Origin: Thermaerobacter subterraneus DSM 13965
GTDB taxonomy: Bacteria > Bacillota > Sulfobacillia > Thermaerobacterales > Thermaerobacteraceae
NCBI RefSeq assembly: GCF_000183545.2
Contig: NZ_JH976535.1
Location: 921,890 to 985,889, forward strand
DNA: 64,000 nucleotides
Direction of reading: 5' to 3'
Each line of letters starts with the position of its first letter. Position 1 is the stretch's first letter. The notes under the pieces were generated by a model. The model made no database searches. It saw only the letters and a program-made list of their open reading frames with translations, and had not been told where the DNA came from. Both the position numbers and the translations under genes were made by a program. Positions 4,212 to 61,435 of this stretch are shown piece after piece.

Positions 4212-6677
4212 GTGGGCAGGACGGGTGAGGTAAGGGCCGGCGCCGGACCGGGCCCGGGGACGGAGCCGGCGGGCAGCGGCCGGGTTGTGGCGGGAGTGAA
4301 GCCGCTGGGCCCGGAAGATCCGGCCGGCAGCACCGCGCCGGGCGCTGAGCCCCTGCTGGCCGTGGAGAACCTGGAAGTGACCTTCTTCACCGACGGGGGG
4401 CCGGTGCCCGCGGTGCGGGGGGTGAGCCTCACCGTGGGCCAGGGCGAGGTGGTGGCCCTGGTGGGCGAGTCCGGGTCGGGCAAGTCGGTGACCGCCCGGG
4501 CCATCACGGGGCTGGTGCCGCCACCGGGCCGGGTGGTGGGCGGCCGGATCCGGCTGGGAAGCCGCGACCTCCTCGACCTGAGCCCAGCCGCCTGGCGCGC
4601 CATCCGGGGCCGGGAGGTGGGGCTGGTCTTTCAGGATCCGATGACCTCCCTCGACCCCCTGTTCACCGTGGGCGACCAGCTGGTGGAGGCCATCACTGCC
4701 CACCGCCGGATGCCCCGGGCCAGGGCGCTGGCGCGGGCGGAGGAGCTGCTGGCGCTGGCCGGCCTGCCGCGGCCGGCCGACCGGCTGCGCCAGTATCCCC
4801 ACGAGCTGTCGGGCGGCATGCGCCAGCGGGTGCTGATCGCCATGGCCCTGGCCACCCCGCCGCGGCTGGTCATCGCCGACGAGCCCACCACCGCCCTGGA
4901 CGTGACCATCCAGGCCCAGATCCTGGCGCTCCTCGACGACCTGCGCCGCCAGACGGGCGCCTCCCTGCTGCTGATCACCCACAACCTGGGGGTGGTGGCG
5001 GAGCTGGCCGACCGGGTGTACGTGATGTACGGGGGCCGCATCGCCGAGGCCGCGCCCGTCGACCGGCTCTTCGCCCGGCCGGCCCACCCCTACACGCGGG
5101 CGCTGCTGGCCGCGGTGCCCGATCCCTTCGCAGCGGAGGCGCGACCTCCCGACCCCATCCCCGGCGATCCCCCCGATCCGCGGCGGCTTCCCGCCGGCTG
5201 CCCCTTCGCCAGCCGGTGCCCGCTGGCGGAAGAACGCTGTTTCCACCAGGTGCCGCCGCTGCGGGAGCTGGCCCCCGGCCACGTGGCCGCTTGCTGGCTG
5301 CTGGAAGAGGCGGGCGAAGGGGAAGGGCCCGCCGGCCGGGAAGCGCTGGCCGGAGGCGGCGGCCAAGGCGCCCCGCTGGCGACCTCCGGCCGGGCCGCTG
5401 GCGGACCGGGCAGTGCCGGGGCCGGCGCGGAACGCGCCTCGGGCCAGGGTGCGGCGGGACCGCGGGTGCGGGTGACCTTCGGCAGCGGCCCTGGGGAGCC
5501 GGTTCGTCCCTACGATGGACGGGGGTTGGGGCCGGACCCGGGGCAAGCGACTTGGCAGGATCCCTGGCAGCCCCCGCGGGAGGCCCCGGGGCAGGCGACC
5601 CGGACCGTGGGGCAGGATGGGCAGCGGGACCTGGGGCAGGCGGGCCGGCAGGATCGGCGGCAGGCTCCCCAGGCCGCCCGCGGCGGGGCGGCGGGCGGTG
5701 ATCCCAGGCAGCCGGAAGTCCTGCTCCGTCTCGAGGATGTGGCCACCGTCTTTCCCATCCAGCGCGGGTGGCGGCAAACCCGCTTCCTGCGCGCGGTCGA
5801 CGGCGTGTCCCTGGAAGTGCGGCGGGGCGAGACCCTGGGGCTGGTGGGGGAGAGCGGCTGCGGCAAGACCACCCTGGGCCGCACCATCGTGCGCCTGTAC
5901 CGGCCGGCCCGGGGACGGATCCTCTTCCGCGACCGGGACCTGGCCCCGCTGGACGAACCGGCCCTGCGCCCCGTGCGGCGCCACCTGCAGATGGTCTTCC
6001 AGGACCCGTACGCCTCGCTGGATCCCCGCATGCGGGTGGAAGATCTGATCGCCGAGCCTCTCCACCTCGTCCCCGGCCTGAGCCGTCGGGAGCAGCGGGA
6101 ACGGGTGCGGGCCATGCTGGCGCGGGTGGGGTTGCGCCCCGACCACGCCTTGCGCTATCCCCACGAGTTCTCCGGCGGCCAGCGCCAGCGCATCGGCATC
6201 GCCCGGGCGCTGGTGGTGGAACCCGAGCTGGTGGTCGCCGACGAACCCCTCTCGGCCCTGGACGTGTCGGTCCAGGCCCAGATCCTCCACCTGCTCGGAT
6301 CCTTGCAGGAGGAACTGGGCCTCTCCTACCTGCTGATCACCCACGACCTGGCCGTGGTGCGGCACGTCTGCCAGCGGGTGGCGGTGATGTATCTAGGGCG
6401 GGTGGTGGAGGAGGCGCCGGTCGAGGAACTCTTTGCGCGGCCCCTGCATCCCTATACCCAGGCGCTGATGGCAGCCATCCCCGTCCCCGACCCGGTGCGG
6501 GCGCGGCGCCGGGAGAGGCAGCTGGTCCAGGGCGAGCCGCCCGATCCGGTGAACCCGCCTTCGGGCTGCCCCTTCCGGACCCGCTGTCCCCTGGCCCAGG
6601 CCCGCTGCGCGGAGGAGGTGCCCGAACTCCGGGAGCTGGCGCCGGGGCACCGGGTGGCCTGCCATCTGGCCGGCTGA
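4212..6677 (+). CDS. Fused double ATPase of the peptide ABC importer (OppD-OppF fusion)
   Basis: One 821-residue polypeptide carries two complete ABC ATPase domains that usually come as separate OppD and OppF proteins. Domain 1 has Walker A GESGSGKS near residues 85-92 and Walker B LVIADEPTTALD near 219. Domain 2 has GESGCGKT near 547 and LVVADEPLSALD near 673. Each ends with the oligopeptide-transporter C-terminal motif with three cysteines (CPFASRCPLAEERC and CPFRTRCPLAQARC). A linker of about 110 residues, rich in Gly/Ala/Arg/Gln and probably disordered, joins them at roughly 5340-5715. The GTG at 4212 lies 7 nt after AAGGAGG. A single-chain double ATPase fixes the 1:1 stoichiometry of the pump. 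Confidence 0.93.
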   Translation: MGRTGEVRAGAGPGPGTEPAGSGRVVAGVKPLGPEDPAGSTAPGAEPLLAVENLEVTFFTDGGPVPAVRGVSLTVGQGEVVALVGESGSGKSVTARAITGLVPPPGRVVGGRIRLGSRDLLDLSPAAWRAIRGREVGLVFQDPMTSLDPLFTVGDQLVEAITAHRRMPRARALARAEELLALAGLPRPADRLRQYPHELSGGMRQRVLIAMALATPPRLVIADEPTTALDVTIQAQILALLDDLRRQTGASLLLITHNLGVVAELADRVYVMYGGRIAEAAPVDRLFARPAHPYTRALLAAVPDPFAAEARPPDPIPGDPPDPRRLPAGCPFASRCPLAEERCFHQVPPLRELAPGHVAACWLLEEAGEGEGPAGREALAGGGGQGAPLATSGRAAGGPGSAGAGAERASGQGAAGPRVRVTFGSGPGEPVRPYDGRGLGPDPGQATWQDPWQPPREAPGQATRTVGQDGQRDLGQAGRQDRRQAPQAARGGAAGGDPRQPEVLLRLEDVATVFPIQRGWRQTRFLRAVDGVSLEVRRGETLGLVGESGCGKTTLGRTIVRLYRPARGRILFRDRDLAPLDEPALRPVRRHLQMVFQDPYASLDPRMRVEDLIAEPLHLVPGLSRREQRERVRAMLARVGLRPDHALRYPHEFSGGQRQRIGIARALVVEPELVVADEPLSALDVSVQAQILHLLGSLQEELGLSYLLITHDLAVVRHVCQRVAVMYLGRVVEEAPVEELFARPLHPYTQALMAAIPVPDPVRARRRERQLVQGEPPDPVNPPSGCPFRTRCPLAQARCAEEVPELRELAPGHRVACHLAG

Positions 6678-6944
6678 GACTGGAAAGCCGGTTGAGGCCG
6701 GAAGGGAAAGGGCGTGCCGGCCTCCCAGGCCGCTGAAGAGGCCGGTCCGCTCCCGTGGGAAGGCCGGCTCGCTGCGGTGCGCCGCCGTTCCCTCGTCGTG
6801 CCGGCCTGTTGCGGGCGGTGCGCCGGTCCCCTACAGGTGCCGGGCTGCTGGGTGCGGTGGGGGCCAGGCAGGGGGCGGGCGGCACGGGCGCCGGTTTCAA
6901 CTCCGGAGGCGGTGCAAGGTCAAGTCCGAGGGAGGCGGCAAGGC

Positions 6945-9220: not shown

Positions 9221-9234
9221 GAGCGATTGTATCT

Positions 9235-10757: not shown

Positions 10758-13700
10758 ATGTCCAAGCGGCAACGGCGGGCCGCGCTGGCCTGCCTGGTGA
10801 CGGCCGCTCTCATCGCCCTCTCGTTCCTTACGGCACCCGCCCAGGCCTTTCAGGGGCTCGATGCGCGGGCGCATGGGGACGAACGGGCGGCGGCCCTGGA
10901 ACCGTCCCTCGACATCCGGGACGACCTGCAGGCCCTGGACCTGCGGGAGCGGACCCGGGAGGCGGCGGCACAGCTGGCTGCCGAGGTCGGCGGCGGCCTG
11001 CGCATCCGGTGGAACCCCTTCTACAAGACCCCGTCCCTGATCACCCGCAGCCAAGGCTACCTGACGGGGCCGGCCGAGGGCCAGGCGGTAGACATCGCCC
11101 GGCGGTGGCTGCGGGAGCATAAGGACCTCTTCGGCTGAACGGACCAGGTGGTCGACGGGCTGAAGGTGGTCCGGGACTACGCCCTGCCCGGCACGGGCCT
11201 GCGCCCGGTCACCTTCCAGCAGACCTTCGGCGGGATCGAGACGGCCGCGGGCGGTCGCATCATCGTGGCCGTCAACCGGGAGGGGCGGATCCTGTCGGTG
11301 GCGGCCAGCGCCCAGCCGGCGGCGCCCGTCAAGGGCGGGTTCGACCTCAGCGTGACCGAGGCCCTGGAGAAGGTGGTGGGCGCCCTGGCGCCGGCGGTGG
11401 ACTACGTGCCCGAGGTGACCGGCACCCGCGCCGGCTGGACCGTCCTCGCGCAGGGGCCCTTCGCCACCGTGCAGTACGCGCGCAAGGCCCTCTTCCCCAT
11501 GGGGAAGGAGCTGCGGCCTGCCTGGCGGATCCTGTTCATCCCCAAACTCACCGAAGGTTACGAGGTCCTGGTCGACGCCACCAGCGGCCAGATCCTGTAC
11601 CGCCGCCCCCTGGTGAACTTCAGCGGGCCCGAGGGGCTGGTGTTTGAGAACTACCCCGGGGCGCCGGCGGGGGGGAGCCAGGTGGTGAAGTCCTTCGCCG
11701 GGGATCCCAGCGCCTCGCCCAGGGGCTGGGTAGGGGTGCTACCCGGTGTCAGCGGTCCGACCACCTTCGGCAACAACGCCGACACCTTCGCCAACTGGAG
11801 CAACTTCCTGGTGCCGGAAGGCCCCGGGCTCGTTCGTCCGGTGAACCTGCTCTCCCACTTCAACTATGCCTTCACGGACCAGTGGGGTCGCACCCAGTGC
11901 CAGGCGACGCCACCCTCCTACGCCGAAGACGTGGAGGCCGCGGTGACCAACCTCTTCTACCACCACAACCTGTTCCATGACCACCTCTACAAGCTGGGGT
12001 GGACGGAGCCGGCCGGCAATATGCAGCTCGACAACTTCGGCAAGGGCGGCCAGGGCGGCGACCCGATCCTCGGCCTGGCCCAGGCGGGGGCGCTGACCGG
12101 CGGCGAGCCGCTCTACACCGGCCGGGACAACGCCTACATGCTGACGCTGCCCGACGGCTTGCCCTCCTGGAGCGGCATGTTCCTCTGGGAGCCCATTCCG
12201 GGGGCCTTTGAGGGCCGGTGCGCCGACGGCGATTTCGACGCCGGAGTGATCTACCACGAGTACAGCCACGCCCTGTCGAACCGGCTGGTGGCCGGCGGCG
12301 AGGCCCTCAACAGCCACCAGGCGGGGTCCATGGGCGAAGCCTGGGGCGACTGGTACGGCATGTCCTACCTGATCGCCCGGGGGCTGCAGGACCGGCCCAT
12401 CGTCGGCCAGTACGTCACCGGCAACAGCAAGACGGGCATCCGCAACTACGCCCTGGATCAGAGCCCCCTGGGCTTCGGCGACATCGGCTATGACATCACG
12501 GGGCCGGAGGTCCACGCCGACGGCGAGATCTGGGCCGTCATCCTGTGGGACGTGTGGAAGGCTCTGGTGGGCAAGTACGGCAAGGCACAGGGCGCTCGGA
12601 TCGCCGAGCAGCTGGTGACCGATGCCATGCCCATCTCGCCGCCCGATCCCAGCATGATCGACATGCGGGATGCCATCCTCACGGCCGACGTGGACCGCTA
12701 CCACGGCGACCACTTCGATTTGCTCTGGACCGCTTTCGCCCGCCGCGGCCTGGGGGCCGGAGCCGTGAGCAACACCGGCGACGACACCGACCCCCACCCG
12801 GCCTTCGACCACCTGGCCAAAGCCCGCAACGGCCGGCTGGTGGGGACGGTGGTCAACGCCACCACCGGGAAGCCCATCGACGGCGCCCGGGTGATCATCG
12901 GCGAGTACGAGGCGCGGGTGAGCCCGGCGGCGGTGACAGGAGCCAAAGGCGGCTTTGCCCTCGACATGGTGGACGGTGCCTACACCGTGACCATCCAGGC
13001 GCGGGGCTTCGGGGCCCGGACCTTCCGCAACATCAAGGTCGCCGCGGGCCGGACCACCTCCCTGCGCTTCAGCCTCCAGCCCAACTACGCCTCGGCGGCC
13101 AACGGGGCCAAGGTGATCCAGGTCAGCCGTCTGGGCGAGGACGCCACCCTGCCGGCCAAGAACGCCCTGGACGACACCGAGGCGACGGTCTGGGCCACGG
13201 CCGTCAACGACCAGGGCTATGACGGCGAGTGGATCGTGGTCGACCTGGCCGGTGATCGGCCCGTGCCCATCACGGCGGTCCAGGTCAGCGCCTTCAAGGA
13301 CATCGCCAAGGCGCGCTTCGCGGCCCTGAAGGACTTCACCCTGCAGGTGTCCACCGACGGGGTGGTGTGGAAGACCATCCTCCAGGGCAGCTTCCCCACG
13401 GAGAAGCCGCGTCCCGTGGCGCCCGCCCTGCACTACAAGCTCTGGACGCTGAGCCAGCCGGTGCAGGCGGCCTACATCCGGTTCTTTGCCGACAGCGCCC
13501 AGGACAACAGCCTGGGATACGCCCAGGTCGCGGAGATCCAGGTCTTCGGCGGGGACCGGGCCACGGCGGTCGAACCGGCGCCGCTGCCCAAGGAAGACCC
13601 GATCGTCGAGGAGGGGACGGTCCAGGTGGGCAACCCCACCTCGGACACGGTGGGCGGCGTGACGCAAAACGAGTTCGCCGCCACCTGCAACCCCAACCCC

Positions 13701-13967
13701 TCCAGCCAGGGCCTCGACGGGTGGGTGATGGAGCTGCCCGAGTCCTTCGGTGACGGGACCCATCGCATCACCGCCGCCGGCCCGGGCACGGGGACCTACG
13801 ACTTCGACCTCTATTTCTATGCGGCGAACTGCCAGATGCTGGGCAGCAAGGCGTCGGCCGCCGCCGACGAGTCGGCGGTGATCCCCGGCGGCACCCGGTT
13901 CGTGGTGGCCGCCCTGTGGCTAGGCGCCAGCGTCCCGCTGCGGCTGATCGCCGAACCGTCCCAGTGA
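10758..13967 (+). pseudogene. Secreted M36 (fungalysin-type) metallopeptidase interrupted by an in-frame TGA
   Basis: A single frame encodes about 1,070 residues but is broken by TGA at 11136-11138. The first part (10758-11138) has a signal peptide and the start of an FTP-like propeptide ending REHKDLFG. The second (from GTG 11148) resumes with VVDGLKVVRDYALPG, exactly as an FTP domain would continue, so one codon is affected and the frame is not shifted. The catalytic zinc motif HEYSH (12255-12269) and the downstream GEAWGDWYG glutamate are intact. After these come a carboxypeptidase-regulatory-like fold (GRLVGTVVNATTGKPIDGA), a discoidin-like segment and a C-terminal domain. It is a recent pseudogene, a read-through gene or a sequencing error. 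The second part lacks its own export signal. Confidence 0.85.
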
Positions 13968-14077
13968 GGACGAACCGGCCGCGGCGCCGCGGAATCCGCC
14001 GGCGGCCCCGGCGCCGGCGGGCGGAGCGGGGGACGGCTTCCCCCGAAGGGGAGTGCCAGCGGGCAGTGGAGGAGCGG

Positions 14078-14250: not shown

Positions 14251-15612
14251 TCACCGCCGCCAGGGCGATAGGGCCATGCGCCGGTAGGTGTGCCGCCGGC
14301 CGCGGATGGCGATGCCGTAGGCCATGATGTTCTCCGGCAGGGCGATGCCGTGGTAGCCCGCATCCCCCAGATGATGCACGTCGAACCCCGCCGCCTTGGC
14401 CATCAGGGCGATCTGCCGCACGGTCTCCTCGCCGGCCCCCTCCTGGGACGTGCCCACGGTGCTCATGGCCAGGGCGCCGGCGGCGTGGACCGCCTCCACC
14501 CAACGGCGCGCCTGGTCCAGGGTGACTCCCGGCACGGTGGCCGGCGCGGGCAGGGCCACCAGGTCGACCCCGGCCGCCACCAGGTCCTTGACGTCACCCT
14601 CGTCCAGAAAGGGTTCCTGCCCGAACCAGCGGCCGGCGCCGTGCATGCGGCCGGCGGCCAGCAGCAGCCGCTCGGGCGGAAGAACCCGGCGGATGGCCTC
14701 CGCCGGCCGGAGGATGCCTTCCGGGCTGACCCCCGTCTGGGGGTTGCCGGTCAACAGGATCCACTGGGCCCCTTGCTCCACCGCCCGCAGGGCATTCTCC
14801 GGGGTGGCCCGCCGCCCCGGCGGCACCCGGTCGCTGGGCTCCAGGTTGATCCCCACCACCCGGCCGGCCAGCAGGGCCAGGGCGGCCAAGGGGCGTACGA
14901 GGTCGAGCGCCCCGGCACCCGGCACCGCCTGCCCGGCGAGGGCAGGGGCCGCGGGTTGACCCGCGGGTGCGGCGGGTGCGGAGGCGGCCGGCAAGGCGGC
15001 ACCACGACCGGTCTCGGTAGACGCGGCAGAGGCCGGAGCATGACCGGGCGCGGTGGTCGCCACCCCGGCTGGCATGGTGCCGGGCGCGACGGCCGGGGCC
15101 CCGGCTGCCGCCTGGGCGCGCCCGGTCAAGGCCGGCGGGGCAGCCGGCAAGGTGGCGGGCTCGCCGGCAACCGCCGCCGGACCCGGCGCGGCCCAGGCGG
15201 GGGCCGCGCCGGCCGGTTCGTCCCAGCCCGGCAGGCCGGCGATCCGGGGCGCCCGCACGTCGTAGACGTTGACCAGCAACAGGTCCGCACCGAAGGCGGC
15301 GGCCAGCTCGCCGTTGGTCACGCCGTCCACCAGGGGCGCGGCCACGGCCACCACCTCGGCGGCCAGAACCCGGCCCTCGCTGGCGGCGATGGCCTGCCGC
15401 AGGGCCGTGCCCCGCAGGCGCACCAGCTCGGCCGGTACCAACTCCAGCAGCCGCCCTGCGGGCCGGCCCTCCGGCGCCGGCGGCACGGCAGCCTGTACGG
15501 CGGCAGCCTGCACGATCTCTTGCGGTGCCCCCGTGGCACGCGGCTGCGGGGATCCAGAGGGCTGGGATAGGTTCTCCCCGGCGGGCTCGCCGGGGTGGAA
15601 CGGGACGTTCAC
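14251..15612 (-). CDS. DUF7916-family TIM-barrel-like protein of the PTS operon
   Basis: I recognise the conserved parts of a family often found beside PTS genes: EGRVLAAEVVAVAAPLVDGVTNGELAAAFGAD, GRVVGINLEPSD, LLTGNPQTGVS, STVGTSQEGAGEETVRQIA, and HHLGDAGYHGIALPENIMAYGIAIRGRRHTYRRMA. The reaction is not known to me. The start is taken as GTG 15612 because AGGAGG lies 7 nt upstream; the frame is open further to 15684. A low-complexity Ala/Pro/Gly insert of about 100 residues (roughly 14935-15230) interrupts the core between GLPGWDEP and the strand LDLVRPLAALALL. It is the last gene of the PTS cluster, 50 nt after the IIA gene. Confidence 0.75.
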   Translation of the reverse strand: MNVPFHPGEPAGENLSQPSGSPQPRATGAPQEIVQAAAVQAAVPPAPEGRPAGRLLELVPAELVRLRGTALRQAIAASEGRVLAAEVVAVAAPLVDGVTNGELAAAFGADLLLVNVYDVRAPRIAGLPGWDEPAGAAPAWAAPGPAAVAGEPATLPAAPPALTGRAQAAAGAPAVAPGTMPAGVATTAPGHAPASAASTETGRGAALPAASAPAAPAGQPAAPALAGQAVPGAGALDLVRPLAALALLAGRVVGINLEPSDRVPPGRRATPENALRAVEQGAQWILLTGNPQTGVSPEGILRPAEAIRRVLPPERLLLAAGRMHGAGRWFGQEPFLDEGDVKDLVAAGVDLVALPAPATVPGVTLDQARRWVEAVHAAGALAMSTVGTSQEGAGEETVRQIALMAKAAGFDVHHLGDAGYHGIALPENIMAYGIAIRGRRHTYRRMALSPWRR

Positions 15613-16617: not shown

Positions 16618-17751
16618 CTAACCCTGCGGATTGCTGCGTGTCTCCACCGGCTCCCGGCCGGGCGTGGGCAGGTCCAGCCGCCGGATCAGGAACCGGAACA
16701 GGAAGTAGTAGACCACGCCGAAGACCAGGCCGATGGGGATCAGCAGGGCGGGCTGGGTCGCAATGCCCCAGTTCAGCACGTAGTCGATGAGACCGGCGGA
16801 GAAGGTGAACCCGTGGCGGATCCCCAGCTCGTAGACCAGGGCCATGGAGATGCCCGAGAGCACCGCGTGGGTGATGTACAGCACAGGTGTCAGGAACATG
16901 AAGGCGAACTCCAGCGGTTCGGTGATGCCGGTGACGAAGGAGGTCAGGGCCGCGGAGAGCAGGATGCCCCGGGCCGCCGCCCGGTTCTCCGGCTTCGCCT
17001 CGTGGATCATGGCCAGGGCGACGCCGATCAGACCGAACATCATGATCGGATACCACCCGGCCATGAAGATCCCGGCCGACGGGTCGCCGGCGAAGAACCG
17101 GTGCAGGTCGCCGTGGACCACCTCGCCCGTCTGGGGGTTGGTGAAGTCGCCGAAGACGAACCAGACCAGGCTGTTGATGATGTGGTGCAGGCCGAAGGGC
17201 AGCAAAAGCCGGTTCAGCACCCCGAAGACGAAGACCCCCGCAGCCCCCGCCCCCACGATCCAGTTGCCCAGGGCGTCGATGGCCTGCTGGACGGGGCCCC
17301 AGACGAACCCGAAGACCACGCCCAGGACCAGGGCCCAGAAGGCGGTGACCAGCGGGACGAACCGGCGCCCGCCGAAGAAGCCCAGCCACTCCGGCAGCCG
17401 GATGTTGTGGTAGCGGTTGTACATGGCCGCGGCCAGCGCGCCGGTGAGAATGCCCGCCAGGACGCCCATGTTGAGGTCCTCGTTGATGGTGGTGAGGGTC
17501 TTCTGGAACACCACGTACCCGACCAGAGCCGCCAGTCCGGCCACACCCGCCTGGTTGGCCAGGCCGATGCCGACGCCGATGGCGAACAGCAGGGGCAGGT
17601 TGGAGAAGATGGCATCCCCGGCCTGCGCCATCACCGGAATGTTCAAAAGGTCCGGCTGGCCGAGGCGCAGCAGGATGCCGGCCGCGGGTAGCACCGCCAC
17701 GGGCGCCATCAACGCCCGGCCCACCCGCTGCAATCCCCCCATGACGTTCAT
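16618..17751 (-). CDS. PTS IIC membrane permease, glucose/N-acetylglucosamine family
   Basis: This 377-residue integral membrane sugar permease couples transport to phosphorylation. It has about ten hydrophobic helices. Family landmarks are LMAPVAVLPAAGILLRLG at the N-terminus, the substrate-site motif TGITEPLEFAFMFLTP, and HGFTFSAGLIDYVLNWG near the end. The last is closest in my memory to NagE-type (GlcNAc) permeases, but glucose remains possible. The ATG at 17751 follows GAGGAGGGG. The gene is preceded by a GlcT-type RAT and terminator, so its expression should depend on antitermination. EI and HPr are not in the window. Confidence 0.9.
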   Translation of the reverse strand: MNVMGGLQRVGRALMAPVAVLPAAGILLRLGQPDLLNIPVMAQAGDAIFSNLPLLFAIGVGIGLANQAGVAGLAALVGYVVFQKTLTTINEDLNMGVLAGILTGALAAAMYNRYHNIRLPEWLGFFGGRRFVPLVTAFWALVLGVVFGFVWGPVQQAIDALGNWIVGAGAAGVFVFGVLNRLLLPFGLHHIINSLVWFVFGDFTNPQTGEVVHGDLHRFFAGDPSAGIFMAGWYPIMMFGLIGVALAMIHEAKPENRAAARGILLSAALTSFVTGITEPLEFAFMFLTPVLYITHAVLSGISMALVYELGIRHGFTFSAGLIDYVLNWGIATQPALLIPIGLVFGVVYYFLFRFLIRRLDLPTPGREPVETRSNPQG

Positions 17752-26451: not shown

Positions 26452-29265
<2,814 letters not shown>

Positions 29266-33913: not shown

Positions 33914-33917
33914 GGCC

Positions 33918-41592: not shown

Positions 41593-45207
<3,615 letters not shown>

Positions 45208-45209
45208 CC

Positions 45210-48050: not shown

Positions 48051-48083
48051 TCGGCCGGATGGCGAGTTTTTGGGGGTGGGACC

Positions 48084-51000
48084 GTGGCCGTAAGCAACTA
48101 CGAACGGGTCCGCAGGGCTCTCGAACTGCTGCGCAACGGGCTGGCGCCCTTCGTCGCCCGGGAGATCCGCCTCGCCCGCAAGGAGGGGCGGGTGGATGAC
48201 CGCGTCCTCTTGCGCTTCGTCGACGATCCCCTGGTGGCCGAGAAGCCGGTGGAACAGTGGGACGTCGCCCTCCTCCTCAAGCTGATGTGGAACACGTGGA
48301 ACGACGTGTTCAAGCATACCCTGGGCCAGGCCGAGCGCAGCTTCGTCTCCGAGATGCGCGATTGGCGCAACCGTTGGGCCCACCAGGAGCCCTTTAGCAG
48401 CGACGACACCTACCGGGTCCTCGATTCCGCCCGGCGCCTGCTGGCCGCCATCGCCGCCCCTGAGGCAGAGGAATTGGACCGTATGACCGCGGAGCTCCTG
48501 CGCATCCAGTTTGATGAAAAGGTCCGGCAGCAGCGGCGCAAGGCGGGCGGCTCCCTGATCGAGGCGGCGGCCAGCGGGATGCTCAAACCTTGGCGGGAGG
48601 TGGTGAGCCCCCACGAGGACGTGGCCGGCGGGCGCTACCAGCAGGCCGAGTTCGCTGCCGACCTGTGGCAGGTGTACCTCGGTGAGGCTCGGGACGAGTA
48701 CCAGGATCCGGCCGAGTTCTTCCGTCGCACCTACCCGACCCAGAGCTTGAAGGGGCTGCTGGTGAATGCCGTACGACGGCTGTCCGGCCAGGGCGGCGAC
48801 CCCGTGGTCCAGCTCCAGACCAATTTCGGCGGCGGCAAGACCCACTCCATGCTGGCACTGTACCACCTGTTCTCCGGCCTCGGGCCGGGGAGCCTCCCGG
48901 GCGTCGAGGACGTGCTCAGGGAGGCCGGCTTCACCTCCATCCCCCGGGCGCGGAGAGTGGTGCTGGTGGGCAATCGCATCTCCGTCGGCAACCCCAGCGT
49001 CAAGGACGACGGCACGGTGGTCCGCACCCTCTGGGGCGAGCTGGCCTGGCAGCTGGGGCGGCGGGACGCCTACGAGCGGGTGCGGGCCGACGACGAGCGG
49101 GCCACCAACCCCGGCGACACCCTGCGCCAGCTGCTGGCGGACTACGGGCCCTGCCTGATCCTCATCGACGAGTGGGTGGCCTACGCCCGCCAGCTCCACG
49201 ACGCCGGCGACCTGCCCGCCGGCAGCTTCGAGACCCAGTTCACCTTCGCCCAGGCCCTGACCGAGGCGGTCAAGGCCGTCCCCCACGCCCTGCTGGTGGT
49301 GAGCCTGCCGGCGTCGGAGAGCCCCACCGCCACCCGCACCGGTGCCGAGGACGTCGAGGTAGGCGGCTCCCGCGGCCGGGAAGCCTTGGAGCGGCTGCGC
49401 AACGTTATCGGGCGCGTGGAGGTGCCCTGGCGGCCGGCCACCCCCGAGGAGAGCTTCGAAATCGTCCGGCGCCGGCTCTTCCAGCCCATGACGGACCCCG
49501 AGCAGTTCGAGGCGCGGGACGTGGTGGCCCGGGCCTTCATGGAGCTTTATGAGAAACATCCCGGGGAGTTCCCCGCCGAGTGCCGGCAGCCCCAGTACGA
49601 GCGCCGGATCAAGGCGGCCTACCCCATCCACCCCGAGGTCTTCGACCGCCTATACGGCGACTGGGCGACCCTGGTGCGGTTTCAGCGGACCCGGGGCGTG
49701 CTGCGGCTCATGGCCGCGGTGATCCACAGCCTGTGGGAGCAGGGAGACCGCAGCCCCCTGATCCTCCCCTCCACCCTGCCCATGAACGACTCGCGGGTGC
49801 AGTCGGAGCTCACCCGCTACCTGACGGACAACTGGGTCCCCGTGATCCAGCGGGACGTGGACGGCGAGGGCTCGCTGCCCCGGCAGATCGACGGCGAGTC
49901 GAACACCTTCGGTCGCTACGGTGCCGCCCGCCGGGTGGCCCGAACCATCTTCCTCGGTTCCGCCCCCACCTACACCGCGGCCAACCGGGGCCTGGACGAC
50001 CGGCGGATCCGGCTGGGCTGCGTCGGACCCGGCGAGTCGCCCAACGTCTTCGGGGATGCCCTGCGGCGCCTGGCCAGCCGGGCGACCTACCTGTACACCG
50101 ACGGGACCCGTTACTGGTACGCTCCCCAGCCCAACGTCAACAGCCTGGCGGAGGAACGGGCCGAGCAGCTCAAGGGCCAGCCCGACAGGGTGGCCGAGGA
50201 GATCGAGCGCCGTGTGCGGGACCAGGCGCGCCACGCTGCGGGCCCCTTCGCGGGGGTGCACCCCTTCCCCCGATCCAGCCAGGAGGTGCCGGACGAACCG
50301 GCCGCCCGGCTGGTGATCCTGGGCCTCGACGCCCCGCACCAGCGCAGCGGCGAGAGCCCCGCCCGGGCGGCCGCCGCCCAGATCCTCGAGTGGCGTGGCC
50401 ACCAGCCCCGCGTGTACCGGAACACGCTGGTGTTCCTGGCGGTGGACCGCTCCCAGTTGGACGGCCTCGATGAGGCGGTCCGGCGCTACCAGGCCTGGGA
50501 TTCCATCCTGCGGGAGCGGGAGGCCCTCAACCTGGACCCCCACCAGACCCGCACCGCCGAGCGGCAGAGGGCGGACGCCGATGCCACGGTGAACCTGCGC
50601 CTGGAGGAGGCCTTTCAATGGGTGCTGGTACCCGAGCAGCCCGACCCCCAGGGAGAGATGGAATGGGTGGCCGTGCGGTTGTCGGGCTCCGGGAACCTGG
50701 TGGAACGGGCCGGCAAGAAGCTGGTTCCTGACGGTCACCTGTACACCCAGCTCGGCGGCAACGTGCTGCGCCTGCAGCTGGACAAGGTGCCCCTGTGGCG
50801 CGGCGACCACGTGGAGGTCCGCCAGCTGGTGGAGGACTTCTTCCGCTACCTCTATCTCCCCCGGCTGCGGGATCCGTCGGTGCTGGTGGGTGCGATCGAG
50901 AACGGCGTGGGGATGCTGACGTGGCTGCAAGACGGCTTCGCGTATGCCGAGAGCTATGACGAGGCGGCCGGCCGTTACCGCGGGCTGAGGGCGGGGGAGG

Positions 51001-51470
51001 GGGTCTCCCTGGATGCCCTTGCTCCGGTGGGGCTGCTGGTTCGTCCGGCGGTGGCGGAACGGCAGCTCAAGGCCGAACTGGTCGGGCCGGCCGGAGCGGG
51101 TGATGTGGCCGGCGGAGGCCCGGCCGGGCAGCCCGCGACCGCCGGTGCCGCCGGGGTGACCGTGGCCGGTGTGGTGGTCGCTCCGGGCGGGGGCCAAGGG
51201 CCGGGGGCTGTGCCGGGCACGCCGCCCCAGCCCGTCTTTCGCCGCTTCTACGGCAGGGCCACCTTGAACCCCATGCGGGTGGGAGGGGATGCCGGGAAGA
51301 TCGCCGAGGAGGTCATCGCCCACCTGGCGGCCCCGCCCGGGGCTGAGGTCCGGATCACGCTGGAGATCGAGGCGTCGCTGCCCGCGGGGTTCTCCGAGCC
51401 CGTGATCCGGACGGTGCGGGAAAACTGCAACACGTTGAAGTTCGAGGAGCACCACTTCGAAGAAGAGTAG
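48084..51470 (+). CDS. DUF499 ATPase with N-terminal Swt1-type HEPN domain
   Basis: A 1,128-residue protein. The first 130 residues look like a Swt1-type HEPN fold with the ribonuclease-type motif RNRWAH (Arg95-x4-His100) after a conserved WNDVFKHTLG helix. The DUF499 ATPase core follows, with Walker A QTNFGGGKTHSML (about 245-257) and Walker B CLILIDEWVAYARQL. A Gly/Ala/Pro-rich linker (about 51090-51230) precedes a small C-terminal domain. It starts at GTG 48084, 33 nt after the methylase stop, and closes the operon. HEPN domains commonly act as RNases that abort infection; here that is inferred from the motif. Confidence 0.9.
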   Translation: MAVSNYERVRRALELLRNGLAPFVAREIRLARKEGRVDDRVLLRFVDDPLVAEKPVEQWDVALLLKLMWNTWNDVFKHTLGQAERSFVSEMRDWRNRWAHQEPFSSDDTYRVLDSARRLLAAIAAPEAEELDRMTAELLRIQFDEKVRQQRRKAGGSLIEAAASGMLKPWREVVSPHEDVAGGRYQQAEFAADLWQVYLGEARDEYQDPAEFFRRTYPTQSLKGLLVNAVRRLSGQGGDPVVQLQTNFGGGKTHSMLALYHLFSGLGPGSLPGVEDVLREAGFTSIPRARRVVLVGNRISVGNPSVKDDGTVVRTLWGELAWQLGRRDAYERVRADDERATNPGDTLRQLLADYGPCLILIDEWVAYARQLHDAGDLPAGSFETQFTFAQALTEAVKAVPHALLVVSLPASESPTATRTGAEDVEVGGSRGREALERLRNVIGRVEVPWRPATPEESFEIVRRRLFQPMTDPEQFEARDVVARAFMELYEKHPGEFPAECRQPQYERRIKAAYPIHPEVFDRLYGDWATLVRFQRTRGVLRLMAAVIHSLWEQGDRSPLILPSTLPMNDSRVQSELTRYLTDNWVPVIQRDVDGEGSLPRQIDGESNTFGRYGAARRVARTIFLGSAPTYTAANRGLDDRRIRLGCVGPGESPNVFGDALRRLASRATYLYTDGTRYWYAPQPNVNSLAEERAEQLKGQPDRVAEEIERRVRDQARHAAGPFAGVHPFPRSSQEVPDEPAARLVILGLDAPHQRSGESPARAAAAQILEWRGHQPRVYRNTLVFLAVDRSQLDGLDEAVRRYQAWDSILREREALNLDPHQTRTAERQRADADATVNLRLEEAFQWVLVPEQPDPQGEMEWVAVRLSGSGNLVERAGKKLVPDGHLYTQLGGNVLRLQLDKVPLWRGDHVEVRQLVEDFFRYLYLPRLRDPSVLVGAIENGVGMLTWLQDGFAYAESYDEAAGRYRGLRAGEGVSLDALAPVGLLVRPAVAERQLKAELVGPAGAGDVAGGGPAGQPATAGAAGVTVAGVVVAPGGGQGPGAVPGTPPQPVFRRFYGRATLNPMRVGGDAGKIAEEVIAHLAAPPGAEVRITLEIEASLPAGFSEPVIRTVRENCNTLKFEEHHFEEE

Positions 51471-54037: not shown

Positions 54038-55663
54038 ATGGCGTACGAATTCCGGTTGCCCGACGTGGGCGAGGGCATCCACGAAGGGGAGATCGTCCGC
54101 TGGCTGGTCAAGCCGGGGGACCGGGTGCACGAGGACCAGCCCCTGGTGGAGGTGCAGACCGACAAGGCCACGGTGGAGATCCCGTCCCCGGTGGCCGGCG
54201 TGGTGCTGGAGCTGCGCGGCAACGAGGGCGATGTGGTCCAGGTCGGCAGCGTGATCGTGGTGATCGAGACAGAAGCCCAGGGGGACGAACCGGCTGGGGC
54301 GGCGCCGGCTGCTGCTGCGGCCCCTGCGGCCCAGGCGGCGCCCCCGGCGGCGCCGCACCAGGCGCCCCCGGCTCCGGCGGCCGCGGGCCCGGCCGCGGCC
54401 CCGGGAGGGGTGCCGGCCGCCTCACCTGGGGTCACGCCGCCGCCCCCGCCTGGCCCGGCCGCGGTGCCCGGGGCGGATGCAGCGCGCGGGGCTCGGGCGC
54501 CGGGCGACGCAGCCCCGGCGGCCCCAGGCGGCGGGCCGGCGGCCGCAGCGCGGCGGGTCCTGGCCACCCCGGCCACCCGCCGGCTGGCCCGGGAGCTGGG
54601 GGTCGACATCCGGCAGATCCCCGGGACGGGCCCGGCGGGCCGGGTGACGGCCGAGGACGTGCGGGCCTTTGCCGCGGCCCGGGCAGCCGGGACGCCGGCG
54701 GTCACGGCGACTGCGGCCGGTGCAACGGCGGGTGGCGCGACGGTGGCGGCCCCGCCCGCAGCTCCGGGGGCAACGCCGGCCGTGGCACCCACTGCGCCAG
54801 CGGGTGCGGCCCCGTCTGCCGGACCGGCCGTTGCATCCCCTGGCGCCGCCGCGGCGACCCCGGCGGGGGTACCGGGGGTGGCCGCCGCAGCCACGGCGGG
54901 CGCGGCCAGGCCCGCGGCCGCGGCCGGTTCGGCCGCCAAGTGGGTCGTTGCAGCGGGAGGCGAGCAGCGCGTACCCTTGCGGGGCCTGCGCAAGCGCATC
55001 GCCGAGAAGATGGTCCAGTCCAAGTACACCGCCCCCCACGTGACCCACGTGGAGGAGGTCGACGTCACCGAACTGGCGGAGCTGCGGCGCAAGGCCCTGC
55101 CCCTGGCGGAGCAGCGGGGGATCAAGCTCACCTATCTACCCTTCATTGCCAAGGCCGTGGTGGCGGCCCTGCAGCAGTTTCCCATCTTCAACGCCAGCCT
55201 GGACGACGAGCGCCAGGAGATCGTGCTCAAGGGTTACTACCACATCGGTGTGGCCACGGCCACCGACGAGGGCCTCATCGTTCCCGTGGTGCGGGACGTG
55301 GACCGCAAGAGCATCTTCCAGCTGGCCCGGGAGATCGCGGCCTTGACCGAAGCGGCCCGGGCGCGGCGGATCGCCCTGGACGACGTGCGGGGTTCGACCT
55401 TCACCATCACCAACGTGGGCGCCCTGGGCGGCGGCGTGTGGTCCACGCCCATCATCAACTACCCCGAGGTGGCGATCCTGGGCGTGCACAAGTTCCGCGA
55501 GACGCCGGTGGTGCGGGATGGGCAGATCGTGGTGCGGACCATCACGTACCTCGCCCTGAGCTTCGACCACCGGGTGGCCGACGGGGCCGACGCGGTGCGG
55601 TTCGTCAACCGGATCAAGGAGTACCTGGAGCAGCCGAGCCTGCTGTTCCTGGAGATGGCCTGA
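54038..55663 (+). CDS. pdhC: Dihydrolipoamide acetyltransferase (E2)
   Basis: The 541-residue core of the complex. The lipoyl domain carries its lysine in VQTDKATVEIPSPVAG (Lys43). The E1/E3-binding domain is RRLARELGVDIRQIPGTGPAGRVTAEDV. The catalytic domain ends in LSFDHRVADGADAVRFVN. Two Ala/Pro/Gly linkers (about residues 85-165 and 215-300) act as swinging arms and are longer than usual. The ATG at 54038 follows GAGGTG. The lipoyl group would be supplied by LipA and LipB, whose genes lie 6 kb downstream. Confidence 0.96.
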   Translation: MAYEFRLPDVGEGIHEGEIVRWLVKPGDRVHEDQPLVEVQTDKATVEIPSPVAGVVLELRGNEGDVVQVGSVIVVIETEAQGDEPAGAAPAAAAAPAAQAAPPAAPHQAPPAPAAAGPAAAPGGVPAASPGVTPPPPPGPAAVPGADAARGARAPGDAAPAAPGGGPAAAARRVLATPATRRLARELGVDIRQIPGTGPAGRVTAEDVRAFAAARAAGTPAVTATAAGATAGGATVAAPPAAPGATPAVAPTAPAGAAPSAGPAVASPGAAAATPAGVPGVAAAATAGAARPAAAAGSAAKWVVAAGGEQRVPLRGLRKRIAEKMVQSKYTAPHVTHVEEVDVTELAELRRKALPLAEQRGIKLTYLPFIAKAVVAALQQFPIFNASLDDERQEIVLKGYYHIGVATATDEGLIVPVVRDVDRKSIFQLAREIAALTEAARARRIALDDVRGSTFTITNVGALGGGVWSTPIINYPEVAILGVHKFRETPVVRDGQIVVRTITYLALSFDHRVADGADAVRFVNRIKEYLEQPSLLFLEMA

Positions 55664-55690: not shown

Positions 55691-57175
55691 ATGGTCGTCG
55701 GCGAGGTGGCGACGGAGACCGAGGTCCTGGTCATCGGGGGCGGCCCGGGGGGTTACGTGGCCGCCATCCGGGCCGCCCAGCTGGGCAAGGACGTCACCCT
55801 GGTGGAGAAAGACCGCCTGGGCGGGGTGTGCCTGAACGTGGGCTGCATCCCCTCCAAGGCCCTGATCGATGCCGCCAAGGCCTATCACCGGCTGGCCCGG
55901 GAGGCGGAGCGGGGCATCGTGGTCGAGGGGGCGCGGCTGGACTTTGCCCGGTTGCAGGGCTGGAAGCAGTCGGTGGTCCAGCGGCTGACGGGCGGCGTGG
56001 AGCAGCTCCTCAGGGGCAACGGCGTGACGGTGGTGAAGGGGCGGGCCACCTTCACCGGGCCCAACCAGGTGCTGGTGGAAAACCCCGGTGGGGGCAACGA
56101 GGTCTACCGGTTCAAGCACTGCATCCTGGCCACGGGCTCGCGGCCCGTTGAGCTTCCGGGCTTCGCCTTCGACGGCATCCGCATCCTGGATTCCTCGGAT
56201 GCCCTGACGTTGGACCACCTGCCCCTGCGGCTGGTGGTGATCGGGGGCGGGTACATCGGCCTCGAGCTGGGCACCGCCTTTGCCAAGCTGGGGTCGGAGG
56301 TGACGGTGCTGGAGCTGGCTGACCAGCTGCTCCCCGGCACCGATCCGGAGCTGGTGCAGGTGGTGGCCCGGCGCCTCCGCCAGCTGGGGGTCAAGGTCCA
56401 CACCGGCGTCCGCGTCCTGGGGTGGGAAGAGGCGCCCGGCGGCGAGGGGGTCCGGGTGGTGTTCCGGCCCGAGCCCCGCGGGGAGGGGGCGGCGGGAGCC
56501 GGGGCGCCGGGATCGGCGGGTTCGTCCGGATCGGAAGAACAGGCCGTGGTGGCCGACGCGGTCCTGGTCAGCGTGGGCCGGCGGCCCAACACCGGCGGCC
56601 TGGGACTGGAGCTGGCGGGCGTGGAGCTGGACGAGCGGGGCCGGGTGAAGGTCGATGCCCAGCTGCGCACCAGCCAGCGGAACATCTTCGCCATCGGCGA
56701 CATCGTGCCCGGTCCCATGCTGGCCCACAAGGCCAGCCGGGAGGGGATCGTGGCGGCGGAGGTCATCGCCGGGTTGCCCGCGGCGGCCGATTACGTGGCG
56801 GTGCCGGCACCCGTCTTCACCGACCCGGAGATCGCCACGGTGGGGCTGACGGAGGAACAGGCGCGCCAGCAGGGCTACGACCCGGTGGTCGGGCGGTTCC
56901 CCTACGCGGCCAACGGCCGGGCCCTGACCCTGGGCGAGCGGGACGGGTTCGTCAAACTGGTGGCCGATCGGGAGAGCAAGGTGGTCCTGGGGGCGGGCAT
57001 CGTGGGGCCGGAGGCGTCCGACCTGGTGGCCGAACTGGCCCTGGCCATCGAGATGGGCGCCACCCTGGAGGATCTGGCCCTCACCATCCACGCCCACCCG
57101 ACTTTAAGCGAGGCGGTGATGGAGGCGGCGGAGGCGGGGCTGGGCCACGCCATCCACGTGCTGGGGAAGCGGTAA
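55691..57175 (+). CDS. lpdA: Dihydrolipoamide dehydrogenase (E3)
   Basis: A flavoprotein that reoxidises the lipoyl group with NAD. It has 494 residues. The FAD fingerprint GGGPGGYVAAIRAAQLG, the redox disulfide GGVCLNVGCIPSK (Cys47, Cys52), the NAD fingerprint VVIGGGYIGLELG and the catalytic HAHPTLSE near the C-terminus are intact. About 20 Gly/Ala/Ser-rich residues are inserted near 56490-56545. The start is ATG 55691 or GTG 55682. It closes the pdh operon. Confidence 0.95.
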   Translation: MVVGEVATETEVLVIGGGPGGYVAAIRAAQLGKDVTLVEKDRLGGVCLNVGCIPSKALIDAAKAYHRLAREAERGIVVEGARLDFARLQGWKQSVVQRLTGGVEQLLRGNGVTVVKGRATFTGPNQVLVENPGGGNEVYRFKHCILATGSRPVELPGFAFDGIRILDSSDALTLDHLPLRLVVIGGGYIGLELGTAFAKLGSEVTVLELADQLLPGTDPELVQVVARRLRQLGVKVHTGVRVLGWEEAPGGEGVRVVFRPEPRGEGAAGAGAPGSAGSSGSEEQAVVADAVLVSVGRRPNTGGLGLELAGVELDERGRVKVDAQLRTSQRNIFAIGDIVPGPMLAHKASREGIVAAEVIAGLPAAADYVAVPAPVFTDPEIATVGLTEEQARQQGYDPVVGRFPYAANGRALTLGERDGFVKLVADRESKVVLGAGIVGPEASDLVAELALAIEMGATLEDLALTIHAHPTLSEAVMEAAEAGLGHAIHVLGKR

Positions 57176-57561: not shown

Positions 57562-57818
57562 CCCGATCACCCCACCGGTTCGTCCGTTCCGGTTCACCCG
57601 GTTTCGCAGCAATAACCTGCCCGGAACGGCGGGGCCGCAGACCGGAGCCTTGTAACAGCGCGGGCAGGTCGAGGGCACGGCGGGCGACACCTGCGGCTGT
57701 TCCAGGTGCCGCCGGATTTCGCGGGCTGGCGGATCTCAGGTCTTGCCGGATCTGTTATAGTCATCTTAGAGGTGGGTTTTCGTCCGGACGGTCCTCACCT
57801 CCACATCACAATCCATGA

Positions 57819-58560: not shown

Positions 58561-58593
58561 GATGCCCGCCCGCACGCTCTGCGCAGGGGGTGC

Positions 58594-59375: not shown

Positions 59376-59407
59376 GGGGGCCGGTTTCTGCGGAGGAACC
59401 GGCCCCC
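59376..59407. terminator. Bidirectional terminator after ribU
   Basis: GGGGGCCGGTT and AACCGGCCCCC flank a 10-nt loop between convergent ribU and the DUF1805 gene. On the minus strand it is followed by TTTTCC. The remainder of 59203-59613 shows no feature. Confidence 0.75.
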
Positions 59408-59613
59408 TGCCTTCTCCGCGCCCTGCCCTCCTTCATGGCGACGGGCCGGCGACCCCGGCGGCCGCCGGGCAGGCGGGCTTGACCGCCCGCCCCCCGCCCG
59501 CCTCTTCCGGGCTTTTCGTGGGCCGTTGACCCGGGCTTCCAGGCTTCGGCCGGCTCTTCGGTACCCCCTTCTCCCGGCCCCGAGCCCAGCCCATGGCCTC
59601 CTCCCCCAGCCCT

Positions 59614-59985
59614 TCACCCGGCCGCCGGGCCCGGGTCGTCGCCGCCGGCCGCCGTCACGGCGGGAGCCGGTTCCACCGCCAGGAGGCGTTCCAGGGCGTC
59701 GCGCCCCGTCATCCCCGGGTGAATACCCAACTCCCGCGCCGCGCTGGTGACCGACTCCAGCGGGCGCTCCAGGAGATCGCTGAAGTCGCGGACGCCGAGA
59801 GCGCGGCCCGCCACGATGCGGCGGGCTCCGAGTAGGTCGTCCAGCAGGCGCACGTCCAGGGCGCCGCACATGATGTACCCGGCGGGGGTCGCGATGGCCA
59901 CCAGCCGGGTCTTGGGCAGTTCCACCTTCACGCCGACGGCCGTTCCGCCCTTGAGGGGGATGGGCCGAACCTCGACCACAGGCAT
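59614..59985 (-). CDS. DUF1805 protein, YunC-like
   Basis: A 123-residue protein with the YunC family core: VKVELPKTRLVAIATPAGYIMCGALDVRLLDD, RRIVAGRALGVRDFSDLLERPLESVTSAARELGI and HPGMTGRDALERLL. Its function is unknown to me. The start is ATG 59985, close behind GGGAGGG; the frame is open to 60108 but without family sequence. Confidence 0.85.
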   Translation of the reverse strand: MPVVEVRPIPLKGGTAVGVKVELPKTRLVAIATPAGYIMCGALDVRLLDDLLGARRIVAGRALGVRDFSDLLERPLESVTSAARELGIHPGMTGRDALERLLAVEPAPAVTAAGGDDPGPAAG

Positions 59986-60562
59986 TCCCTCCCGATGGCG
60001 CGGGCGCATGGTGCGGGCGCAGCGCGCCCGTTCCGTGCGGAGCCCGCCGGTCCGGTTACGGGCCGCCCCGGTGCCGGGGGCGGGGGCCCTCCGGGGAAAC
60101 CGCGGCAACCGCGGCGGATCCCGGCTTGAGGGCCCGCCGCTGGCCGGGGTCGCCGCCCGGACCTGGGCCCCTGGAACCGCTGGCTAGGGCATTGTATGGC
60201 CGCCCGTGGGCCGCCGCCCCACACGGGGCGGCAGGCGGGACTCCTCCCTGCACGTCCCGCTCGCAGGAGCGGGGCTCACCTCTTCTCCGGTACGCCATCT
60301 GGCTGCCTCGTGGCCCGTGGCCTGCCCGTCCCGGCGAGACGGCGGTCCGTGACCGGGGGACCGGCCGCCCTTGACCCGTGGAGCCCCCGGCGTGACCGGC
60401 CGTGACGGGTAGAGTGACCGGCTTGACCGGCCGGACGGGACCGGCCGGGCTGCCGGGCGGACGGCCCCCGGTGCCGGGAGATGGTGGCAACTGGAAGGTA
60501 TAGCAGCCGGGGGCTTCCGCAATCTAACCGCTGGAAACAGCTAGCCGTCAGGGGGGATCATC
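59986..60562. other. Intergenic region between divergent genes
   Basis: No gene was recognised in this 577-nt stretch. On the minus strand CATACAATG (about 60190-60198) contains a good -10 box (TACAAT) for the DUF1805 gene. Around 60390-60465 the words GACCGG and CCGGCC recur many times. Confidence 0.4.
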
Positions 60563-61435
60563 GTGGACGAACCCAGCGCCTTTGGTGGCCCGAGCCACGC
60601 TCGTTACGGCGCAACGCCGCAATCGTACAACCCGCAGGAGCAGTACACTTCCCAGTGGCAGTCGCCGGCGGGCGGGCAGGGCCTGGGCAACCAGGCTTCG
60701 GGCCAGTTCCAGAACCAGGCCGGCCAGGCCGGCGGGCAATTGGGCCAGTACGGCCAGTTCGGGCAGGCTGGCGGCCAGGCCGGCCAGTACGGGCAGTTCC
60801 AGAGCCAGGCGGGGGCGTATGGCCAGTTCCAGAACCAGGCCGGGCAGTTCGGGCAGTATGGCCAGAGCGCCCATGCCCAGTACGGCGCCACGGCCCAGAG
60901 CTACGATCCCGCGGAAAACTACAGCAGCCGCTGGCAGTCCCAGGCCGGTGCGGGTAACATGAGCAACCAGGCCGGGGGCGCCAGCTATGGCGCCGCGGGG
61001 GCTGGCCAGTACGGCCAGCCGTACGGGCAAGCCGGCGGCCAGTATGGCCAGTTCCAGAACCAAGCCGGGCAATTCGGCCAGTACGGCCAGTATGGCCAGG
61101 CGGGTGCCCAGGCGGGAGCCCCGTACGGTCAGTACGGCGGCCAGTACACCCAGAGCACGGCAGGCCAGTTCCAGAGCCAGGTAGGCCAGTACGGCCAAGC
61201 CGGAGGCCAGTATGGCCAGTTCCAGAACCAGGCGGGGTCATCCGCCCAGTTCCAGGGCCAGGCCGGCCAGTACGGGCAGTTCCAGGGCCAGGCCGGCCAG
61301 TACGGGCAGGCCGGCCCGGGCGGCCATGCCCAGTACGGCGCCACGGCCCAGAGCTACAACCCGGCGGAGAACTACTCCGCCAAATGGCAGTCGGCCACGG
61401 CCAACGAGCAGGCGGGTGGCGCTTTCCGGGGTTGA
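60563..61435 (+). CDS. Tyr/Gly/Gln-rich low-complexity repeat protein
   Basis: A 290-residue hydrophilic protein built mostly from GQYGQFQNQAGQ-like repeats, with hardly any Leu, Ile or Val. Three copies of a distinct motif, related to YGATAQSYNPAENYSAKWQS, punctuate it at residues about 15-34, 110-130 and the C-terminus. There is no signal peptide, membrane helix or cysteine. The composition resembles prion-like, phase-separating domains. Another analogy is the Gln/Gly-rich gamma-type spore proteins, which also have repeated motifs. It starts at GTG 60563 after GGGGGGA. I know no family for it; the repetitive but frame-keeping design argues that it is real. Confidence 0.8.
   Translation: MDEPSAFGGPSHARYGATPQSYNPQEQYTSQWQSPAGGQGLGNQASGQFQNQAGQAGGQLGQYGQFGQAGGQAGQYGQFQSQAGAYGQFQNQAGQFGQYGQSAHAQYGATAQSYDPAENYSSRWQSQAGAGNMSNQAGGASYGAAGAGQYGQPYGQAGGQYGQFQNQAGQFGQYGQYGQAGAQAGAPYGQYGGQYTQSTAGQFQSQVGQYGQAGGQYGQFQNQAGSSAQFQGQAGQYGQFQGQAGQYGQAGPGGHAQYGATAQSYNPAENYSAKWQSATANEQAGGAFRG

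Follow-up and report, generated by a model that had tools for sequence, protein, structure and literature searches.

The 12-base word GGACGAACCGGC, commonly extended by a C, recurs hundreds of times in the genomes of four Thermaerobacter species and, judging from its sequence properties, is rather probably the DNA uptake sequence of this genus. The word came to attention in a 64,000-nucleotide stretch of the Thermaerobacter subterraneus DSM 13965 genome (contig NZ_JH976535.1, positions 921,890 to 985,889), here called the window. An initial annotation of this stretch had listed 18 positions of the embedded 9-mer GGACGAACC and suggested a DNA uptake word or another genome-wide recognition word. 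On recount, every one of the 18 was an exact match (11 on the plus strand, 7 on the minus strand), compared to a mean of 0.76 and a maximum of 4 in 100 shuffles of the window. Nine sites extended to the full 12-mer, as annotated, where an order-3 Markov model expects 0.11; the annotation's rough estimate for random sequence had been about one 9-mer and far less than one 12-mer. Allowing up to one mismatch gave 24 matches (shuffle mean, 1.05), of which 15 were additional to the exact copies; "over ten" had been claimed. Under the order-3 model, the word was the most over-represented in the window at k = 9 (18 versus 1.68 expected) and k = 12 (9 versus 0.11), and the top 8-mer was a piece of it. 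At k = 10 its pieces ranked second to CAGTTCCAGA, which occurs six times versus 0.1 expected.

To place these counts in a wider context, we searched whole genomes, taking the reversed pattern as control. The initial annotation had raised the possibility that a genome-wide count would lie near expectation; this did not hold, since the T. subterraneus genome (G000; 2,888,741 bases, two contigs) carries 274 exact copies (125 forward, 149 reverse) versus 3 for the control. Copy numbers in the three congeners are 429 (G001; control, 1), 280 (G002; control, 3), and 525 (G003; control, 3), so that the density across the genus ranges from one per 5.6 to one per 10.5 kb. A genome from another genus of the same family (G004) has 33 exact copies (control, 6). 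This assembly is incomplete, with 7% contamination and five contigs consisting entirely of N. Nevertheless, its copies are unlikely to be stray Thermaerobacter DNA, since, of 30 motif loci, 13 could be aligned to stretches from the genus, none of them at more than 88% identity. We also sampled 398 genomes evenly across the phylum, including the four genus members but not G004. In the other 394, taken without regard to their G+C content, the exact word reached at most 7 copies per genome. Among the genomes searched, the word is thus lineage specific, restricted to Thermaerobacter and, weakly, its sister genus. A tolerant form, GG-NN-GAAC-N(1-2)-GGC (GGNNGAACNGGC), was matched 1262 times in G000, 1395 in G001, 1263 in G002, and 1187 in G003 (controls, 151 to 168); G004 had 368 matches, with 110 for its control. 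Exact counts therefore vary twofold among species of the genus (274 to 525) while the tolerant form holds steady at 1187 to 1395, as if the consensus were kept up more strongly in some species than in others. Farther afield, the order mate G006 had 231 tolerant matches versus 47 in the control, yet only 3 exact 12-mers, an excess that may stem from codon context or from a distantly related signal; in the class relatives G007, G028, and G032, the tolerant form exceeded its control 2.2- to 2.7-fold. We do not claim a separate dialect, GGAGGAACTGGC, in G004, suspected from the enriched GAGGAACTGG, which may be codon context (Glu-Glu-Leu), nor do we claim the GGAACTGG-type words of G005 and G006, two order mates, which may have the same origin.

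The anatomy of the word was examined in samples of 444 to 484 kb of G000 and 400 to 480 kb of G003. With an order-4 Markov model and k from 7 to 14, the top-ranking word in 444 kb from G000 and 400 kb from G003 was always the word itself, a piece of it, or an extension. The word differs from its own reverse complement and is therefore not palindromic. One-base changes were rare at positions 2, 5, 6, 8, and 11 in both samples; position 1 was strict in G000 (4 changed copies) and looser in G003 (11), and some letters were tolerated at positions 3, 4, and 10. Spacer forms, in which a single base is added ahead of the final CGGC, were enriched: GGACGAACCCGGC occurred 20 times versus 0.51 expected in G000 and 19 versus 0.42 in G003, and GGACGAACGCGGC occurred 14 times versus 0.21 expected in G003. 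A C was preferred at position 13 (29/48 in G000, 52/78 in G003). Beyond this base we observed weak deviations in composition only (up to 0.33 bits per position) and no shared flanks.

Sites are conserved between species. For these alignments the sample was enlarged by 500 kb from G001 and 460 kb from G002, overlaps included, and 45 to 170 kb aligned per pair. Exact sites of G000 were identical in G002 in 19 of 20 cases, compared to 84 of 160 flanking 12-mers (P = 1.7 × 10−4); in the reciprocal direction, 19 of 23 sites and 91 of 184 flanking 12-mers were identical (P = 0.003). Sites were better kept than their flanks in all 12 directed comparisons, 5 of them with P < 0.05, although reciprocal comparisons are not independent. 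Orthologous sites that had changed often differed by one base or had switched to another accepted form, and others were lost entirely. Copies are also neutral with respect to replication. We assigned sampled tiles by the sign of their GC skew and summed tile counts of the tolerant form, which gave leading:lagging ratios of 113:109 in G000 (P = 0.84) and 122:101 in G003 (P = 0.18). The test for strand and replichore bias proposed in the initial annotation thus revealed no significant bias in the sampled tiles of either genome, which speaks against a replication-oriented word of the Chi or FtsK-guiding type. The 100 forward sites listed for G000 were evenly spread (Kolmogorov-Smirnov P = 0.39), with 19 of them falling at 0.8 to 1.0 Mb.

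Local gaps in this distribution were seen in transposase-rich DNA. One 20-kb tile of G000 (L013, G000:C1:580001-600000) had no tolerant site versus 12.0 expected (P = 6 × 10−6), the only G000 tile without one; it carries Mutator and DDE transposases and has 61% G+C. The poorest tile of G003 (L029) had 3 sites versus 11.8 expected, IS21 and Mutator transposases, and 66% G+C. Both tiles were chosen for being site poor and do not cover mobile DNA as a whole; in addition, the background is reduced by their lower G+C. In L013, a sodium:neurotransmitter-symporter gene looks as if it had been interrupted: its pieces are spread over three adjacent gene calls, and one of these calls has a transposase match as well.

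Could the word result from codon usage, or from an Asp-Glu-Pro-Ala (DEPA) motif in GC-rich genes? Using codon-model gene calls made in this analysis (77 to 79% of bases coding), we counted 36 coding and 12 intergenic exact sites in G000 and 51 and 28 in G003, covering all six frames, so that the annotated occurrence on both strands and in both coding and intergenic DNA was borne out. Among in-gene sites, the sense DEPA frame was preferred (21/36 in G000 and 29/51 in G003; 57 to 58%), and DEPA was about 10-fold more frequent than the mean of its permutations (31 versus 3.3 in G000; 36 versus 3.5 in G003), as expected if a peptide were the source. However, when synonymous codons were shuffled within each gene (200 times), only 1.77 sense and 0.31 antisense sites arose in G000, versus 23 and 13 real ones, and 1.56 and 0.83 in G003, versus 34 and 17. 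Intergenic exact sites numbered 12 versus 0.23 expected in G000 and 28 versus 0.19 in G003; some of these may sit in missed genes, since the gene calls are rough. Given this intergenic excess, no single amino acid motif explains the word, and the alternative named in the initial annotation, enrichment through one peptide motif or through codon composition, falls. The antisense sites and the ceiling of 7 copies in each of the 394 other phylum genomes also speak against a codon or peptide by-product, which we regard as highly improbable; as a full explanation, it is ruled out by codon shuffling and intergenic counts. AGSS likewise tops its permutations; among antisense readings it is the most frequent in G000 and ties with the RFV frame in G003. 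Because DEPA and AGSS both lead their own permutations, the word seems to drive protein sequence rather than the reverse, and the excess of DEPA is more probably an effect of the word. Just as improbable is a set of remnants of a small mobile element. Hundreds of copies would suit such an origin, but the copies have no shared flanks, grade into one-base and spacer variants, and often differ between orthologous loci by point changes; on the absence of shared flanks and the word-free, transposase-rich tile L013, we reject this candidate.

Two further explanations assign the word a function inside the cell. It could form the arms of hairpins in a transcription terminator or other RNA element. Among 1474 sampled sites (overlapping stretches left out), close inverted pairs in hairpin order, 12 to 20 bases apart, numbered 4, 8, 5, and 4 in G000, G003, G001, and G002, respectively, and pairs in the opposite order numbered 2, 0, 1, and 1, for totals of 21 versus 4. 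Random placement (1000 trials) gave means of 0.57 to 0.74 and maxima of 4, 4, 5, and 3. Inverted intergenic uptake words have themselves been proposed as terminators (PMC2346458). Nevertheless, the pairs are a small minority of the sampled sites, most exact sites lie within genes in both orientations, no T runs follow the inverted pairs listed, and, where genes were called, pairs inside genes make up 4 of 4 in G000 and 2 of 6 in G003. A role as terminator is therefore very unlikely, if slightly less so than the two origins dismissed above. The main rival is another chromosome-wide intracellular site. It could be bound by a nucleoid-associated or chromosome-organizing protein, mark hotspots of recombination or repair, or be modified by a methyltransferase present throughout the genus. 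The even scatter of the listed G000 forward sites fits this explanation too, as do conservation, presence in both genes and intergenic DNA, and graded tolerance of variants. On the other hand, the word has no significant leading/lagging bias, unlike Chi and FtsK-guiding words; it is not palindromic, unlike HIP1; and it is enriched, whereas restriction targets are usually avoided. We consider an intracellular site a serious but clearly less probable explanation.

A methylase is encoded in the window itself. Positions 41593 to 51470 carry an Hma defense set consisting of the HmaA helicase, the HmaB adenine methylase, and the HmaC ATPase (PADLOC, E = 0 each). This island aligns in G003; the syntenic stretches of G001 and G002 yielded no alignment to it longer than 400 bases. 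For HmaA, the match in G003 is at 92%, and G001 and G002 give only partial matches of 39 to 40%. Since G001 and G002 carry the word and yet have only partial HmaA matches and an unaligned island, the Hma methylase is unlikely to own it, a judgment based on HmaA and the island, as HmaB was not searched in whole genomes. This counts against the methyltransferase version of an intracellular site; other methyltransferases were not searched.

If the word is an uptake sequence, its hosts should be equipped to import DNA, and the initial annotation had recommended looking for competence genes. ComEC, DprA, PilB-type and PilT ATPases, and N-methyl pilins were found in all four genus genomes. ComEC and N-methyl pilins were not found in the incomplete assembly of G004. 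In G002, the pilus locus reads pilT, a PilD-type peptidase gene, pilB, pilC, one clear pilin gene, and two weaker pilin candidates. In G000, a ComEA-type gene directly precedes comEC; a group II intron reverse transcriptase gene lies just before this pair (L168, 10215 to 11516). The first pilin of the pilus locus has a type IV N terminus and a C-terminal cysteine pair conserved in all four genomes, and its predicted structure (mean predicted local distance difference test score, 82) resembles type IV pilins in general. Identity of this pilin with ComP, the minor pilin that reads the Neisseriaceae word, is not claimed, as support stops at a Pfam match below threshold and a generic pilin fold. 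The pilus locus is thus a plausible place for a putative receptor, without identifying one. G005 and G006 gave no N-methyl pilin and no PilT above the cutoff, and none of their T2SSE matches reached the strength of the PilB-type proteins of the genus. This had suggested that a pilus might predict the word, an idea we dropped once PilT was found above the cutoff in 26 of 41 genomes.

Taken together, the results suggest that the word serves as a short self tag, which on free DNA would be bound by a putative type IV pilus component. DNA of close relatives would then be preferentially pulled in, passed via ComEA and ComEC, and recombined. Copies would arise by point mutation and be kept because tagged alleles are over-represented in imported DNA, a form of molecular drive. 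Competence of the cells, sequence-biased uptake, and the pilin as receptor are each inferred within this scheme. We favor uptake because the word is long, non-palindromic, strand neutral, lineage restricted, present in all frames, rich in intergenic copies, conserved, sometimes found in inverted pairs, and missing from transposase-rich stretches. Consistent with this, the lack of a palindrome, the lack of orientation bias, and an excess in noncoding DNA have been described for uptake sequences (PMC1939737), as has a preference for one orientation within genes (PMC2346458). The annotated suggestion of an uptake or other genome-wide recognition word is accordingly supported, the excess, codon shuffles, and intergenic counts all being consistent with it.

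Several observations pull the other way. The uptake words of Neisseria and Haemophilus occur about once per kb, more densely than the Thermaerobacter word. Known uptake words are described as homogeneous, with unexpectedly few singly mismatched copies (PMC1939737), while here one-base variants together outnumber exact copies (136 versus 48 in the G000 sample, 102 versus 79 in the G003 sample), making the Thermaerobacter word the less homogeneous. This low homogeneity speaks either against uptake or for a weaker, more tolerant preference; homogeneity is a described trait of uptake words, which we do not take as defining. Seven of the 12 conservation comparisons had P ≥ 0.05 (few sites each), and in 2 of the 4 genomes the number of hairpin pairs equals the random maximum without exceeding it. 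For the candidate receptor, the Pfam family ComP_DUS scored 22.5 (G000), 24.1 (G001), and 25.1 (G002) bits, below the gathering score of 27.3, and had no match in G003, the genome richest in exact copies. A Foldseek search with the pilin model placed ComP fifth (E = 0.11), with no match reaching E = 0.001, and VIA-align 2 placed it ninth (Z = 8.2), the best match being another minor pilin (Z = 9.5). Of the genomes with PilT above the cutoff, 22 lie outside the genus and have at most 6 exact copies each, so pilus genes permit the word but do not predict it. Finally, we found no report of competence in Thermaerobacter in the literature searched, and the words "pili" and "competence" do not occur in the T. 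marianensis genome paper (PMC3035304).

Within the window, the nine exact copies of GGACGAACCGGC lie in varied surroundings. Two fall in one ATP-binding cassette (ABC) transporter ATPase gene, antisense at 5498 to 5509 (minus strand; same in G002) and sense at 5951 to 5962 (plus; identical in G002 and G003, altered in G001). The site at 13968 to 13979 (plus; same in G002) is outside the gene calls, immediately following the end of an M36-peptidase-like call (11148 to 13967). A copy in a DUF7916 gene (15212 to 15223, minus, sense) corresponds in G001 to the 13-base spacer form GGACGAACCCGGC. Antisense copies in a phosphotransferase system EIIC gene (17355 to 17366, plus) and an aconitase gene (27928 to 27939, plus) are identical over their 12 bases in G001, G002, and G003. 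The remaining three, all plus and sense, are in a gene call matching DUF2512 (20551 to 20562; same in G002), the HmaC/DUF499 gene (50291 to 50302; identical in G003), and a dihydrolipoyl acyltransferase-type gene (54283 to 54294). The spacer variant GGACGAACCCGGC occurs in the sense direction in the aconitase gene (27175 to 27187, minus) and the HmaA helicase gene (44769 to 44781, plus) and antisense in a major facilitator superfamily transporter gene (40683 to 40695, plus), where G002 has GGACGAACGCGGC. One-base variants lie antisense in an M42 peptidase gene (23406 to 23417, minus; GGACGAACCAGC), the HmaC gene (51035 to 51046, minus; GGACGAACCAGC), and a pyridine-nucleotide-disulfide oxidoreductase gene (56516 to 56527, minus; GGACGAACCCGC; exact 12-mer in G003), and another (GGACGAACCGGT, 57574 to 57585, minus) is outside the gene calls. 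The last two are 9-mer sites, GGACGAACCAGGC near the end of an oxidase subunit I-type gene (31149 to 31157, plus, antisense) and GGACGAACCCAGC at the start of a gene call spanning 60563 to 61435 (60565 to 60573, plus). Rfam and tRNA scans of the window returned no matches, and no transposase was found among 25 protein queries covering a subset of its genes.

Sequence-specific uptake is described as an outlier, found in Neisseria and Haemophilus, with almost all other competent species showing no preference (PMC12040237), and uptake sequences are known from "two phylogenetically distinct bacterial families" (PMC5031613). T. marianensis is described as lacking lipopolysaccharide (LPS) outer-membrane genes and as belonging among the earliest monoderms (PMC11448272), so an uptake system in this genus would be unlike those of both known families. 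With slightly more caution than for uptake itself, we think it probable that a third uptake-sequence system evolved independently in Thermaerobacter. It would be the first in a thermophilic monoderm of the Bacillota and would use its own word, read by a type IV pilin receptor whose specificity has no relation to that of ComP. A search of open-license PubMed Central found no paper reporting the word. If this interpretation is correct, self-recognition at uptake extends past two Gram-negative families, and such tags have evolved repeatedly, with a deep-branching monoderm as the third case. Such a system would also provide structural studies with a heat-stable receptor and make the origin of uptake tags testable in an unrelated lineage that has no outer membrane.

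Other iterated words offer partial parallels. HIP1 (GCGATCGC) of cyanobacteria is, like the Thermaerobacter word, highly iterated genome-wide without an obvious element, but it is palindromic. Chi and the words guiding FtsK/SpoIIIE are over-represented recognition words oriented with replication, whereas leading and lagging copies of the Thermaerobacter word do not differ significantly. Closer resemblances are found in the two established families. The Pasteurellaceae uptake signal sequence (USS) is 5′-AAGTGCGGT-3′ (PMC5031613). It too is a short word found genome-wide, with no overall orientation bias, a preferred in-gene orientation, and an excess in noncoding DNA. The letters of the two words are unrelated, the Thermaerobacter word is much less homogeneous, and the AT-rich flanking extension of the USS was not seen. 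The DNA uptake sequence (DUS) of the Neisseriaceae is 5′-ATGCCGTCTGAA-3′ (PMC5031613). Like the Thermaerobacter word, it has 12 bases, is not palindromic, occurs on both strands in genome-wide excess, forms some close inverted pairs, has sister-genus variants that share a more constant core, and is accompanied by type IV pilus and ComEC genes. The Thermaerobacter word differs from it in its unrelated letters, its fewer copies, its more numerous one-base variants, and its spacer-length variants. The hosts differ as well, since Thermaerobacter, unlike the Neisseriaceae, is a GC-rich monoderm member of the Bacillota without LPS outer-membrane genes (PMC11448272).

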